From Azospirillum sp. TSO22-1 (lineage in GTDB: Bacteria > Pseudomonadota > Alphaproteobacteria > Azospirillales > Azospirillaceae): DNA of 64,000 bases. Made by a program: the position numbers and the translations under genes. The stretch lies in contig NZ_LGQZ01000079.1 in assembly GCF_003116015.1 (NCBI RefSeq), positions 1 to 64,000 on the forward strand, written 5' to 3'. The notes under the pieces are model-generated. The model saw nothing but the letters and a program-made list of their open reading frames with translations. It ran no database searches and was not told the origin of the DNA. Of this stretch, positions 37,439-60,546 are shown in pieces (positions within the stretch are counted from its first letter, which is position 1; the number at the start of each line of letters is the position of its first letter).

Positions 37439-37462
37439 GCAAGGCCAAGGGAGGGACGGGGC

Positions 37463-38203
37463 ATGGCGACGCTGATCGTGACGGGCGGCAGCCGCGGCAT
37501 CGGCGCCGCGGTGGCGCGGTTGGGGGCGCAGCGCGGGTACGCGGTGGCGGTGAACTACGCGTCCAACGCTGCGGCGGCCGAGGCCACCGTCCGCGCCATC
37601 CACGACGCCGGCGGCGTGGCCGAAGCATTCCAGGGCGACGTGGCCGCCGAGGCGGACGTGTGCGCCCTGTTCGAGGCGGCGGAACGGCTGGGGCCGCTGG
37701 CAGCGCTGGTCAACAGCGCCGGCATCGTCGGGCCGTACGGCCGGCTGGACGAGGCGGACGTGGACGGGCTGCGGCGCACGGTGGAGATCAACGTGATGGG
37801 CAGCATCCTGTGCTGCCGCGAAGCGGTGAAACGGCTGTCCACCCGGCACGGAGGGACGGGCGGGGCGATCGTCAACCTCGGTTCCATGGCGGCCGAACTG
37901 GGCTCGCCGGGCGAGTTCGTCACCTACGCGGCGAGCAAAGGGGCCATCGACAGCCTGACCATCGGCCTGGCGCGCGAGGTGGCCAAGGAAGGCGTCCGGG
38001 TCAACGCCGTGCGGCCGGGGCTGATCGACACCGACATCCAGATGATTCCGGGGGTGGGCAGCCGGCTCGACAAGTTCGCCACCTCGCCGCCCATCGGCCG
38101 GCCGGGCACGGCGGAGGAGACGGCGGAGGCGATCCTGTGGCTGCTGTCGGACGCCGCGTCGTACGTGACCGGGGCGGTGCTGAACGTGAGCGGGGGGCGG
38201 TAA
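37463..38203 (+). CDS. Short-chain dehydrogenase/reductase (SDR) family oxidoreductase
   Basis: 246 residues. The NAD(P)-binding TGGSRGIG motif is at 7-14, NSAG follows in the middle and the catalytic Tyr-Lys pair is YAASK. The C-terminal PGLIDTDI and TGAVLNVSGGR are standard for FabG-like classical SDRs. The substrate cannot be predicted. It is convergent with the NACHT gene, whose stop lies 35 nt beyond. Confidence 0.92.
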   Translation: MATLIVTGGSRGIGAAVARLGAQRGYAVAVNYASNAAAAEATVRAIHDAGGVAEAFQGDVAAEADVCALFEAAERLGPLAALVNSAGIVGPYGRLDEADVDGLRRTVEINVMGSILCCREAVKRLSTRHGGTGGAIVNLGSMAAELGSPGEFVTYAASKGAIDSLTIGLAREVAKEGVRVNAVRPGLIDTDIQMIPGVGSRLDKFATSPPIGRPGTAEETAEAILWLLSDAASYVTGAVLNVSGGR

Positions 38204-38238
38204 GGTCCTTTCCAACATCTGCTGCGTCCGGTCCGTGG

Positions 38239-41200
38239 TTACCGTTTCGCCGTCATGTTGAATGTTTGGAGTGCAAGGCGGGCACTGCGGGATACGCCGT
38301 CGTCCTCGTCCCGCGTGGCGTCCTCCAGCAGCTCGCCTGCTCTTTCGTGTTTGAAGTTTTCCAGCGCTTTGACGGCAGTTCCCCGGACACTTGCCGATGG
38401 GTGTTTGAGCAATGTTGCAAAAGTTGCAAATGACGATTCTTTGCCAATTTTAGAGAGCGCCTCCATGTACAGCTGCAGCCGCGTATCGGTTGCATTGTTG
38501 CCGACGGCATCGGCTCCGAGCGCCAGAAACAGGAGGAGGCGCCGCCAACGGCACTGCCGCATTGTCAAACGTTCCAGTGTGGGAACGGCCTGCTCCGCTT
38601 TGAGTTGGCCGAGCGCGTGAGCAAGGGCGCACTGCCGCCAACGGGATCTCGTTGTCTTCAGAGCCTCGATCAACCCATCGATCTTGTCGGGTGTAACTGT
38701 CGCTGCCACAGCGTCGGCAGCTTGCTTCCAACAGTGCTTGTCGCCCATCAACTCATAGGCTTTCTGGAAGAACACGTGCAGGGAGCGTGTGCCGACCTCT
38801 TCAAGCGCCGAGGCGCGAACACGCTGATCCGCATCGGACAAGGCGTCGCACAAGACGGCGTTCTGATCGATGTCTGGAAGGTGCTGCAAGCTTTTGAGTG
38901 CATCAGCGCGCACCATCGGGTCTTGATCCTTTAGGCGCTCAGTGAGCGATGTTTGTAAGGCGCGGGTGAGTGCCTGGTGATCGCTATCATGATTGTGTGT
39001 CTTTAAGATAAGTTTCTTTATAATGCTCTGCATCGTGGAGACAGCCGCCATTCGAACGTGGGCGTTCGTGTCGTTGCAGGCCTGAATGACGGCCGGGACG
39101 CTTATGTCAGGCGAAATGTTTATGTAAGCATACGTGGTCGCTCTTCTGACTTTTTCGGCGGTATCCCGGAAACATATCTCCAGCAAATCGGGCAATCTCT
39201 CCGGAAAAAGGTCGTTCGCAATTTTTATTGCGGACAATTTGTCATCAATTTCTTTAGAATTAATCATTCTATTTATTGCAGCAAATATTTTTCTCCCGAA
39301 TTTTTCTTTAATTGGCGTAGATATATCTTTTTGTGGAGCAAATAAAGTATTACCAAATCTTGCGTTCGCAAAGTGAGTTAACGCAATATCAAATAAATAA
39401 TCATCACTGTCTTCGAAAAGTCTGATTATAATTTCATCTCCGCAATACATTCCTATCTTATTAAGTTGAATAAGGCCGGCTGCGCGAATTTTTGCTGCGT
39501 TGTCATTTAGGAATTCCATGGAAAGTTTGTGTCTTTCTTTGTATTCAAGTCGATCAAATGCGTCGGCTATGAGAATCCTGATCTTGCTATCCGGCTCCGA
39601 GCGTAAGACGTGCAACAGCATTTTGGGGCGGTCTGGTGATGGAATTTTCACCAGAAGAGAAACCGCTTGGGCGCGCAGTTTCGGATCCTCGTTACGGGTT
39701 AATTCCACGATGGTGTCGAAGGAGGCAACACCCTGCAGTGCCAATTTTTGCATAATATTTATACGTTCACTACCATGGCTTGTGCTTAGGGTTGCTGTCA
39801 GTTCTCGAACGGCGAAATGATTTCTCAAAATAATATGTATGAATTCATAGTCATCCTCGATTTTTCGCAATAAAAGTGTGTGGCAAGAATAATCAAAAAA
39901 TAGTTGTGTTTGCCAAGGTATGGTGCGACGGATTTTAAGCCATAGCTTTGCTGCGGTGTTGAGGCTTGCTTGCTTGCTATGAGTGCTGTTCCGTCGAACG
40001 GATAATACGAAAAGCAGAACGACCCATGCTGCCGCCATTGCTGCGGCGGCGCTGGCTGTGAGGGTGGCAACAGCGACAGCTGCGCCAGCGGCGAACAGTC
40101 CTACGTCGCCAATGATTGCCAGCGCTCCGAGCAGCATGGCGAGCATCGCGGTATCGTAGAGCGGCGGAAACGGTCCGAAGTACCAATCCATCAACCAACC
40201 GATGAAGGCGCCCAAGCCGAACGCCGCGCTACACACCAAGCCGGCAATGAGACGCTCGTCTGGAGCTTCGAGCGCCACCTGAGCCAGGGTAATGAGGCAC
40301 CCCGCCGCCGCCGCCGCCAGCCATCCGTGGTCGGGGAAAAGAGCCGCGGCCACACTGGCGCCAACAACTGGTAGGGCGACGCAGCGAATCCATCGGGCCA
40401 CGGCGTACATACGCCGTAGACGCCGAGGCACGTCATTCGGCATGTCTTTAGGCATGAAGGCCATCGTCAGCAACGATGCCGTTGCTAGCGCAGACAGTGC
40501 TGCGACATCGGAAGGGCTGCCGAACAGTCGGGCCGCAGCGTTGCCAACGGTGCCGATCACGGCAAGGGCGCCTATGATCAGCGCTCCGCGGATGGCGTAG
40601 AGCGCAGTTTGAGAAGCCCAAGGTGGAAGCCAGGGGAGGTTATCCTCGTCTGCGGCATATATGCTGAGGGCACAGAGCACCGCAATTGGAGGGGGGTAGA
40701 GGATGCTGCCGTCCAGCCCTCCCGCAATGGCTTGGATTCCACTCGCGGCCACGCCCAGGGCGGTGGCGAGCAGCAGAGCCGCCGGCAAGAAGATTTCGTT
40801 TGGAGCGCTGCTCGAGGTGTGTTTCGGGGTGAGGAAGAAACCCCCGATCTTGCGTCCGGAGAACCGAACCTGAGCCCGTTCGCTCAGCGCGATGGCGAGG
40901 TTGGCAAGGTAGTGGTTGACCTCGTCCCGGGAGTAGTGCGTCGCCAGTGTCTCCCGTGAGTTCGGGTTCCAATGGCGGTTGGCCTTCCGGAAGGCCTCGC
41001 GCTGCATCATGCGGTCGATGAAGTTGTCGAACAGGCTGAGGCGCCGCTCATGCAGTGGCAATTCCTTGCCGATCTCGGAGCGCTCCATGCCGCGGTAGGC
41101 CAGCGCCATCATGCTCAGGGTCAATGGGTTTCGCGCCAGTTCGGTCAGCGCCTTGTCGTCGGCCAGTCCTTCGCTCAACGCGTCGGCGCCCGCCTTGACC

Positions 41201-42261
41201 AGATACGCGGTGACCTGTTCGTCGCGCAACGGCTGCAAGGTCACCGCGCCGGTGAGCCGCAACTTCGTGTCGTTGCCGTGCTCCAGCGGCTGGTACTCGA
41301 TGAGCCGGGACGCCACGACGGTTGGAAGCTGTGAGTGCCGGGCCAGCAGCGTATTGTTTAGATACTCAGCGAACATCGGAAGGAAACGGTCGCTGATCTC
41401 GTCCAAGCCGTCGAGCAGGAGAACCACCGAGCCTCTTTCGATCCAACTGTCGACTACGGCGGGCGAGAGGGCCGGAACCCGGAGGGATCCCACCAGGAAT
41501 GCGATTCGGTTCTGGATCGTGAGGTCGGTTGCCGGATCTTCCTTTGGTGTCTCGTCCTGTTGCAACTTGCCCCTGTTTTCTTTCGGAGCCCGGTTGGTGT
41601 GGAATCGCCCGGCCTTTTCCTGGATGAGGACGCTCTGAAAGCGCGACAGGCTTTCCAAGATCGGCACAGGGGCGGAATCGTCGGCCAGCGCCCGCGCGAT
41701 CAGGTCGCGGGCAAAAATCAGCAGAGTCGTGCTTTTGCCGGATCCCGGCGCCCCGAAGAGAAGGAGTCGGCGATCAAAATGTTCGTAGGCCTCCTGAAAA
41801 GTTGAGAATGCGTGGCCGCTCCCGCTCATGCTTTCCGGGTAGTGCCAGGGATTCGTGACGTCGGAGCGTTCGTCCATGTTGAGGCTGAGCAGAAGCGCGT
41901 GATGAATCGAGGCGTTGAGCCTGTTCTCGACCTCGCGCTTCATGTGTTGCAGGTAGCGGCGGCGGACGTCGGTCATGTCGCCGGCCGCGTCAGCACGCCC
42001 GGACGGCAGTTCGTTGTCTTTCCCACTGCCCTTCACGAGGCGAACGAGGATTATTGCCATGATGGCGATGAATAAAACGATAGCCACCAATACGATGGTG
42101 TTTCCGCCTGGTGTTCCCGACAGGTCAATAATGCTGCTATCTCGCAGGAATTCCACCACAGCCATGCCGCCTTCCAAGGCGCCCTTGCCGACATCCAGGA
42201 CCGTAATGGCTACGAGCAATGCCGCCGCGACCGCGGCTATCAGGTGCACCTTGTTATTCAT
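38239..42261 (-). CDS. Membrane-anchored NACHT NTPase with HEAT-repeat C-terminus (bacterial NLR-like)
   Basis: 1340 residues from the ATG at 42261; an upstream GTG at 42315 is possible. Order: two membrane helices (about 5-23, 55-75), a cytosolic linker, then NACHT with Walker A GAPGSGKST (170-178) and Walker B LLLDGLDEIS (281-290). A hydrophobic block of several helices follows (about 490-755), then EFIHIILRNHFAVREL (806-821), which resembles the F-H-x5-(Q/E)YFA motif closing many NACHT modules. About 500 residues of HEAT-like helical repeats follow (about 830-1330, e.g. LRAQAVSLLVKI, VRADALKSLQHL, VRASALEEVG). NACHT-HEAT proteins of bacteria are STAND NTPases and several protect against phage; here the helices suggest a membrane effector. 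The gene stands alone and part of it is very AT-rich, suggesting transfer. Confidence 0.85.
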   Translation of the reverse strand: MNNKVHLIAAVAAALLVAITVLDVGKGALEGGMAVVEFLRDSSIIDLSGTPGGNTIVLVAIVLFIAIMAIILVRLVKGSGKDNELPSGRADAAGDMTDVRRRYLQHMKREVENRLNASIHHALLLSLNMDERSDVTNPWHYPESMSGSGHAFSTFQEAYEHFDRRLLLFGAPGSGKSTTLLIFARDLIARALADDSAPVPILESLSRFQSVLIQEKAGRFHTNRAPKENRGKLQQDETPKEDPATDLTIQNRIAFLVGSLRVPALSPAVVDSWIERGSVVLLLDGLDEISDRFLPMFAEYLNNTLLARHSQLPTVVASRLIEYQPLEHGNDTKLRLTGAVTLQPLRDEQVTAYLVKAGADALSEGLADDKALTELARNPLTLSMMALAYRGMERSEIGKELPLHERRLSLFDNFIDRMMQREAFRKANRHWNPNSRETLATHYSRDEVNHYLANLAIALSERAQVRFSGRKIGGFFLTPKHTSSSAPNEIFLPAALLLATALGVAASGIQAIAGGLDGSILYPPPIAVLCALSIYAADEDNLPWLPPWASQTALYAIRGALIIGALAVIGTVGNAAARLFGSPSDVAALSALATASLLTMAFMPKDMPNDVPRRLRRMYAVARWIRCVALPVVGASVAAALFPDHGWLAAAAAGCLITLAQVALEAPDERLIAGLVCSAAFGLGAFIGWLMDWYFGPFPPLYDTAMLAMLLGALAIIGDVGLFAAGAAVAVATLTASAAAAMAAAWVVLLFVLSVRRNSTHSKQASLNTAAKLWLKIRRTIPWQTQLFFDYSCHTLLLRKIEDDYEFIHIILRNHFAVRELTATLSTSHGSERINIMQKLALQGVASFDTIVELTRNEDPKLRAQAVSLLVKIPSPDRPKMLLHVLRSEPDSKIRILIADAFDRLEYKERHKLSMEFLNDNAAKIRAAGLIQLNKIGMYCGDEIIIRLFEDSDDYLFDIALTHFANARFGNTLFAPQKDISTPIKEKFGRKIFAAINRMINSKEIDDKLSAIKIANDLFPERLPDLLEICFRDTAEKVRRATTYAYINISPDISVPAVIQACNDTNAHVRMAAVSTMQSIIKKLILKTHNHDSDHQALTRALQTSLTERLKDQDPMVRADALKSLQHLPDIDQNAVLCDALSDADQRVRASALEEVGTRSLHVFFQKAYELMGDKHCWKQAADAVAATVTPDKIDGLIEALKTTRSRWRQCALAHALGQLKAEQAVPTLERLTMRQCRWRRLLLFLALGADAVGNNATDTRLQLYMEALSKIGKESSFATFATLLKHPSASVRGTAVKALENFKHERAGELLEDATRDEDDGVSRSARLALQTFNMTAKR

Positions 42262-42407
42262 GACCAACTCGCTCAGGGAATATCCGCTTGCAACAGAATG
42301 GTGTCGACGGGGCACAGGGGCTCAGGCGAGCGGGTGGCAGGATACACCCGGCGGTACAGGTGTGGCAAACCAGCGCGCGGAACAGTGGGGGGTAAAGACC
42401 CTTCCCG

Positions 42408-60470: not shown

Positions 60471-60546
60471 GCCCAGGTAGCTCAGCTGGTAGAGCAGGGG
60501 ACTGAAAATCCCCGTGTCGGCGGTTCGATTCCGTCCCTGGGCACCA
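60471..60546 (+). tRNA. tRNA-Phe (GAA)
   Basis: 76 nt with encoded CCA. Acceptor GCCCAGG pairs with CCTGGGC; the D-arm is GCTCAGCTGGTAGAGC, the anticodon stem-loop GGGGACTGAAAATCCCC has anticodon GAA, and TTCGATT is in the T-loop. Confidence 0.98.

Follow-up and report, generated by a model that had tools for sequence, protein, structure and literature searches.

A putative membrane-integral NACHT-HEAT receptor of the NLR type with a predicted split winged helix in Azospirillum sp. TSO22-1

Within a 64,000-nucleotide stretch of contig NZ_LGQZ01000079.1 from Azospirillum sp. TSO22-1 (hereafter referred to as the window), a minus-strand open reading frame (ORF) at positions 38239..42261 encodes a protein of 1340 amino acids, which probably represents a membrane-integral STAND/NACHT receptor of the NLR type, most likely for defence against phages or other invaders. 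The reading frame begins with ATG at position 42261 and contains a single stop at its end; an alternative GTG start upstream, at 42315, would lengthen the product by 18 residues only. From the N- to the C-terminus, two membrane helices (2TM), a NACHT NTPase, a winged-helix domain split by a block of membrane helices, and HEAT repeats were recognized. An immune function is suggested by this architecture and by homology. Variable C-terminal repeats, an NTPase switch and a changeable N-terminal output fit the anatomy of STAND receptors.

All parts of the gene are encoded on the minus strand. The N-terminal hairpin of two membrane helices (residues 7-73; 42043..42243) occupies the end at which sister proteins carry their effector or have it fused upstream. 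It is followed by the NACHT NTPase with HD1 (residues 151-440; 40942..41811), assigned from Pfam and the predicted fold, with the Walker A motif GAPGSGKS (residues 170-177; 41731..41754) and the Walker B motif VLLLDGLDE (residues 280-288; 41398..41424), whose core residues are invariant in a 13-row alignment. The first half of the predicted winged-helix domain (residues 441-480; 40822..40941) consists of helices at 445-461 and 472-477 and a strand at 466-468. The second half (residues 781-830; 39772..39921) has a helix at 785-794, wing strands at 798-801 and 804-807, and the motif YEFIH at residue 805, and between the two halves lies the membrane block of about 8-10 helices (residues 491-757; 39991..40791), delimited by hydrophobicity and the structure model. 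The HEAT-repeat C-terminus, a putative sensor (residues 831-1340; 38242..39771), was given its start from the helix pattern of the model; its best Pfam stretches span residues 1055-1331, and the HEAT_2 family scored above its cut-off (1.5e-33, 115 bits). The Walker motifs, the FIH-like segment and the HEAT repeats named in an initial annotation of this DNA were thus all located.

The NACHT assignment was derived from the relatives as well as from the protein itself. Taken alone, the window protein matched Pfam NACHT with 6.3e-4 and a bit score of 20.1, short of the curated gathering score (26.7), which was passed by 5 of the 11 clade members scanned singly. All 40 scanned wider relatives, however, matched NACHT at E ≤ 1e-3, and the AlphaFold2 (AF2) structure prediction showed an NLR core with an NBD-HD1-winged-helix fold. 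Because the relatives match NACHT and the predicted fold is an NLR core, the protein is regarded as a NACHT homologue, although its own profile match stays sub-threshold. The NLR-type NACHT-HEAT receptor proposed initially is hence backed by these NACHT matches, the HEAT_2 match and the predicted fold. No leucine-rich repeat (LRR) family was present among the 25 Pfam families listed for the window protein at E ≤ 1, and at the same threshold the PADLOC models returned no Avs, but two families only (HEAT-ARM_XIII and mad8).

Kyte-Doolittle analysis revealed two N-terminal hydrophobic segments (residues 7-25 and 55-73) and eight more within residues 491-755, while the AF2 model placed ten helices, with low confidence, across residues 491-757. 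Ten hydrophobic windows were thus observed, whereas 200 shuffles of the protein's own residues gave 4.0 on average and never more than 8. Accordingly, the two N-terminal helices and the many-helix block at about residues 490-755 described in the initial annotation were recovered; the block, however, is predicted to sit inside the winged-helix domain, between its helices 2 and 3, and not simply between the NTPase and the FIH-like motif. The model of a distant cyanobacterial relative has a membrane block at the same winged-helix position.

The block is the least conserved region of the protein (mean identity to the window protein 0.17 vs. 0.42 in NACHT). No invariant or nearly invariant column was found at residues 485-780 of the 13-row alignment, and no Pfam family exceeded its cut-off on the block. 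Among the 43 clade rows, 38 have the winged-helix motif, and in these the block comprised anywhere from 2 to 11 hydrophobic segments; a looser motif used for these sizes placed the motif earlier in P0010, P0053 and P0060, so that their block ends are unsure. The distance from Walker A to the winged-helix motif was 410 residues in P0051 and 507-694 in the other 37 rows. P0051, a TIR-NACHT-HEAT protein, has the clade minimum of about 2 segments and thus represents a natural near-deletion of the block. In the wider family, the block of L092, L082 and other cyanobacterial relatives contains small-residue repeats (GLxxGLxxG) and consensus WSW and PNQGI segments, and the L092 model has strands at 174-177 and 229-232 near these segments; in six pieces tested, the block was covered by no Pfam family.

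The N-terminal slot was compared in a tree of the NACHT region (391 columns), in which 43 rows formed one clade against 4 outgroup rows (support 100/99) and the window protein grouped with P0002 and P0009 (100/100); the 47 rows were hand-picked from search listings, and six were labelled as truncated at the N-terminus. Pfam identified SIR2 (P0006), TIR (P0051 and P0074), trypsin (P0014 and P0056), EAD11 (P0052), DUF4062 (P0064) and CHAT (P0060) as N-terminal domains of the clade, as well as an Mrr nuclease placed ahead of the hairpin in P0057 and P0070. The front ends of the sisters thus include enzymes known to kill cells. DUF4062 is described, in the available part of PMC13174449, as a TIR-like NADase of antiphage defence. 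Labels based on length and hydrophobicity gave a soluble N-terminus to 6 of the 43 clade rows and a bare two-helix hairpin, the type of the window protein, to 18, among them P0061 with one segment over the threshold. The C-terminus varies as well: TPR replaces HEAT in P0064, and the known part of P0014 lacks HEAT. Since the tree demands two changes for each of the TIR, trypsin and Mrr labels, gain or loss of these slots occurred repeatedly. In P0057 and P0070 the start of the second hairpin helix precedes Walker A by 114-117 residues, in the window protein by 115 residues, and because of this matching spacing the hairpin is considered part of the chassis in the P0057/P0070 subclade.

These sisters bear directly on the suggestion of the initial annotation that the HEAT repeats sense, NACHT switches and the membrane block is an effector acting by depolarisation; in this reading the block would open a pore. 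No enzymatic domain but the NTPase is present among the 25 Pfam families listed, which makes a membrane-level output the simplest default, and the ten internal helices of the low-confidence model, an even number, are compatible with both flanks being cytoplasmic. The block, however, also occurs in sisters already bearing SIR2, DUF4062, CHAT, trypsin or Mrr domains, and in reduced form with TIR, so that it appears to belong to the chassis and is not an obvious effector; its variable size and its want of a near-invariant column are unlike a dedicated channel. We therefore consider it unlikely that the block is the primary effector; it would anchor the receptor and may sense. It is more improbable still that the protein is a decaying chassis whose effector has been lost, or a functionless passenger. 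The Mrr-bearing P0057 and P0070 intermingle in the tree with the hairpin-only P0061 and P0063, indicating that the Mrr enzyme is easily gained or lost, but 1340 codons have stayed open, the Walker motifs are intact, and the hairpin-only label applies to too many of the chosen clade rows for mere decay.

For a defence receptor of this kind, we infer the following ligand, oligomerisation and output. An infection cue would be sensed by the HEAT repeats in the cytoplasm, perhaps with a contribution of the membrane block, whereupon the winged-helix domain would be freed from NACHT, and nucleotide exchange would then drive the receptors to oligomerise laterally within the inner membrane. The clustered N-terminal slots would deliver the output, which in the sisters would be that of an enzyme-type domain (SIR2, TIR, DUF4062, CHAT, trypsin or Mrr) or an adaptor (EAD11). 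Since the slot of the window protein is a two-helix hairpin only, with no enzyme, its output would consist either of damage that the clustered hairpins and block inflict on the membrane or of the recruitment of a separate, unlinked protein, and is probably exerted at the membrane.

As a tentative possibility, somewhat more plausible than a pore but still doubtful, the membrane block could be a sensor wired straight into the NLR switch. It is inserted between winged-helix helices 2 and 3, in the subdomain that keeps STAND proteins off, and could for this reason act on the switch: a change at the membrane (entry of phage DNA, holin action, loss of potential or a phage membrane protein) could pull the switch and fire the N-terminal slot. 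If so, this would be a family of bacterial NLRs standing guard over the membrane, in which HEAT, WD40 or TPR repeats would serve as an additional, optional sensor. In any case, the prediction makes the winged helix, the part of the switch that moves, a physical component of a polytopic membrane protein, and this chassis takes at least 7 kinds of N-terminal domain. Should the protein be an immune receptor, it would offer a directly testable case of NLR sensing or action at the membrane, with effectors that can be swapped and compared across the family.

Relatives were found far beyond the clade. A search of 5.8 billion proteins yielded at least 33, a profile search 163 (120 of them listed), and at least 71 were detected among 84,980 species genomes, with 2 more in IMG/VR; the protein and profile searches scored only the candidates with the most shared words. 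The membrane block was present in 47 of 73 fetched loci (L109, without Walker A, and L118, with 3 segments, included) from Cyanobacteria, Chloroflexota, Actinomycetota and others. Forty of the 47 were scanned, excluding a near-copy and cut or short frames (L084, L088, L100, L108, L109, L115 and L125), and their further domains comprised CHAT (5), kinase (4), TIR (4), WD40 (3) and HEAT (2). In 27 of the 40, and by eye also in L107 and L130, the protein ends within 40 residues past the winged-helix motif; because almost nothing follows the winged helix in these relatives, sensing or anchoring is a candidate role of the membrane block.

The gene itself is accessory and of foreign appearance. Its guanine-cytosine (GC) content is 0.563, compared to 0.664-0.757 in 257 overlapping stretches of 4020 bp from the rest of the window, and it is single-copy in its own genome. 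At E ≤ 1e-10, with at most 7 candidates scored per same-genus genome, a match was obtained in 1 of 45 genomes of the genus, the window's own, and in 2 of 82 genomes of the family, among which the HEAT type was found only in the window's genome. A housekeeping or core gene was thereby ruled out; two further surveys of this point, with at most 2 candidates per genome at E ≤ 1e-25, registered close relatives only and left the relative in the second matching family genome, G079 (8e-23), uncounted. The relative in G079 is a 602-residue NACHT-membrane protein that ends after the winged helix, and at its locus (L002, 580-2897) the NACHT-membrane gene has a TIR gene 44 bp upstream, the two possibly forming an effector-receptor pair.

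The neighbours of the gene in the window are ordinary: a DUF2161 gene and an SDR gene on one side and a DctD-like regulator on the other, and no partner gene adjoins it. As initially annotated, the gene stands alone and differs in base composition from its surroundings, and the view of it as an accessory acquisition is consistent with the distribution given above. The accessory spot bounded by the DUF2161 gene and the dctD-like gene (37439..42407, no strand assigned) contains here the SDR and NACHT genes. The best-listed matches to the two flanks were side by side in 16 of 44 other same-genus genomes, where the space between them amounted to 20-91 bp in 8 genomes and was filled by a TPR-glycosyltransferase gene in 6 and a histidine kinase gene in 2 (Pfam was run on one gene of each type, the remainder being judged from translated ORFs). 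None of these 16 fetched intervals had a DNA match to the NACHT gene or the SDR gene, and in the other 28 genomes the flanks were not seen together. Because the interval is near-empty or differently filled in the 16 genomes, the spot is regarded as a site of gene turnover, and the NACHT gene most likely as an insert. Within the gene, GC at third codon positions (GC3) is 0.84-0.87 at residues 301-500 (0.87 at 301-400) and 0.24 at residues 901-1000, an AT-rich stretch of the HEAT part (39262-39561) with a GC content of 0.33. Given this fall from 0.87 to 0.24, the HEAT part may have had a history of its own, possibly by intragenic recombination of the sensor.

Several carriers of such a gene were considered and rejected. 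A phage origin was not supported, since none of 50,697 phage records matched at E ≤ 1e-5, nor was a plasmid origin, as the 14 matching records among 72,556 plasmid records were all cyanobacterial and covered about residues 84-481 at 26-31% identity. The two IMG/VR loci were distant, and PHROGs gave one negligible match, in HEAT. A mobile-element boundary was likewise rejected, the repeats near the gene being only short and partly matching; the 64-kb window contains one tRNA, at 60471. Ahead of the gene, two weak matches resembling promoters were noted.

A number of observations weigh against a defence receptor. The window protein and 6 of the 11 clade members scanned singly remain under the Pfam NACHT gathering score, and PADLOC yields nothing past HEAT repeats and one generic P-loop match. 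AF2 confidence in the membrane block is low (block means 44-79, mostly 50-67), the TIR member P0051 retains about 2 block segments only, and the other TIR member, P0074, is cut. The tree requires 21 label changes for 13 labels against a shuffled mean of 27.6, so that the N-termini are partly clustered by kinship; the 21 changes include 6 for the label 'truncated' and are not a swap count. The enzymatic domains of the sisters leave the output of the window protein itself unspecified, and no defence genes lie beside the NACHT gene. In the neighbourhoods of relatives, 132 near ORFs matched 75 PADLOC models at E ≤ 1e-20 and 96 far ORFs matched 6, numbers of models and not of proteins, since one protein may match many models. 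Most of the listed PADLOC models with two members (the first 25 were listed) were PD-T4-6, taken as kinase-type matches, while Avs3a and PycC were among the matches of the far set; the ORFs were chosen greedily without a gene caller, those of at least 900 residues being dropped (7 of 139 near, 1 of 97 far). The 75 against 6 models could be read as enrichment, yet no interpretable enrichment resulted and nothing is concluded from it.

Furthermore, some wider relatives bear XRE helix-turn-helix (HTH), SARP or sigma-70 region 4 domains, which suggests regulation in parts of the family, and cyanobacteria and actinobacteria are prominent among the wider matches listed. The window protein might accordingly serve regulation rather than immunity, as a STAND signal switch that is anchored in the membrane and responds to stress or acts in development. 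We regard this as rather unlikely, slightly more so than the pore, as the close clade bears SIR2, TIR, DUF4062, protease and nuclease domains instead, and as occurrence in one genome of the genus together with foreign composition ill suits a housekeeping regulator.

In comparison with known systems, the window protein differs from the animal NLRs NLRP3, NOD2 and NLRC4 in that no LRR was listed for it and its winged helix is predicted to be split by a polytopic membrane block. Animal NLRs have PYD or CARD at the N-terminus, where the window protein has a membrane hairpin. To our knowledge, the named NLR and STAND systems are soluble or peripherally membrane-bound only. No description of a membrane block inside a NACHT winged helix was found at title and abstract level, a search whose coverage left out most subscription journals. 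Likewise, a winged helix split by membrane helices is not described in the available parts of the accounts of bacterial NACHT and STAND systems consulted (PMC12169576, PMC10907252, PMC7159879, PMC8195603, PMC13092281, PMC13174449 and PMC13236601). Within this searched literature, the split-winged-helix NLR layout appears to be little studied. The departure from known NACHT layouts noted initially holds for the named systems checked; the layout is not unique, given the block-bearing relatives described above.

According to the available part of PMC12169576, the bNACHT antiphage proteins (e.g., bNACHT25) share with the window protein a central NACHT and the principle of an N-terminal effector; bNACHT25 and bNACHT32 combine a PD-(D/E)XK effector with an NCH1 domain, and bNACHT02 and bNACHT12 have SNaCT and no discernible effector. 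The word 'transmembrane' is absent from the main text of that account. Avs (antiviral STAND) proteins have a TPR-type sensor, as far as the available part of PMC10907252 goes, in place of the HEAT repeats seen here, and, as noted, Avs models gave no PADLOC match. The same source describes one locus whose NACHT domains are predicted to be cytoplasmic in one protein and periplasmic in the other. Closer in layout are the 'NACHT domain-containing' database proteins of cyanobacteria, Chloroflexota and actinobacteria (many of L081-L150 and P0015-P0048): they differ in their other N-termini and in the early, HEAT-free ending of the 27 scanned proteins mentioned above, but share with the window protein NACHT, the membrane block and the Y-x-F-I-H motif.

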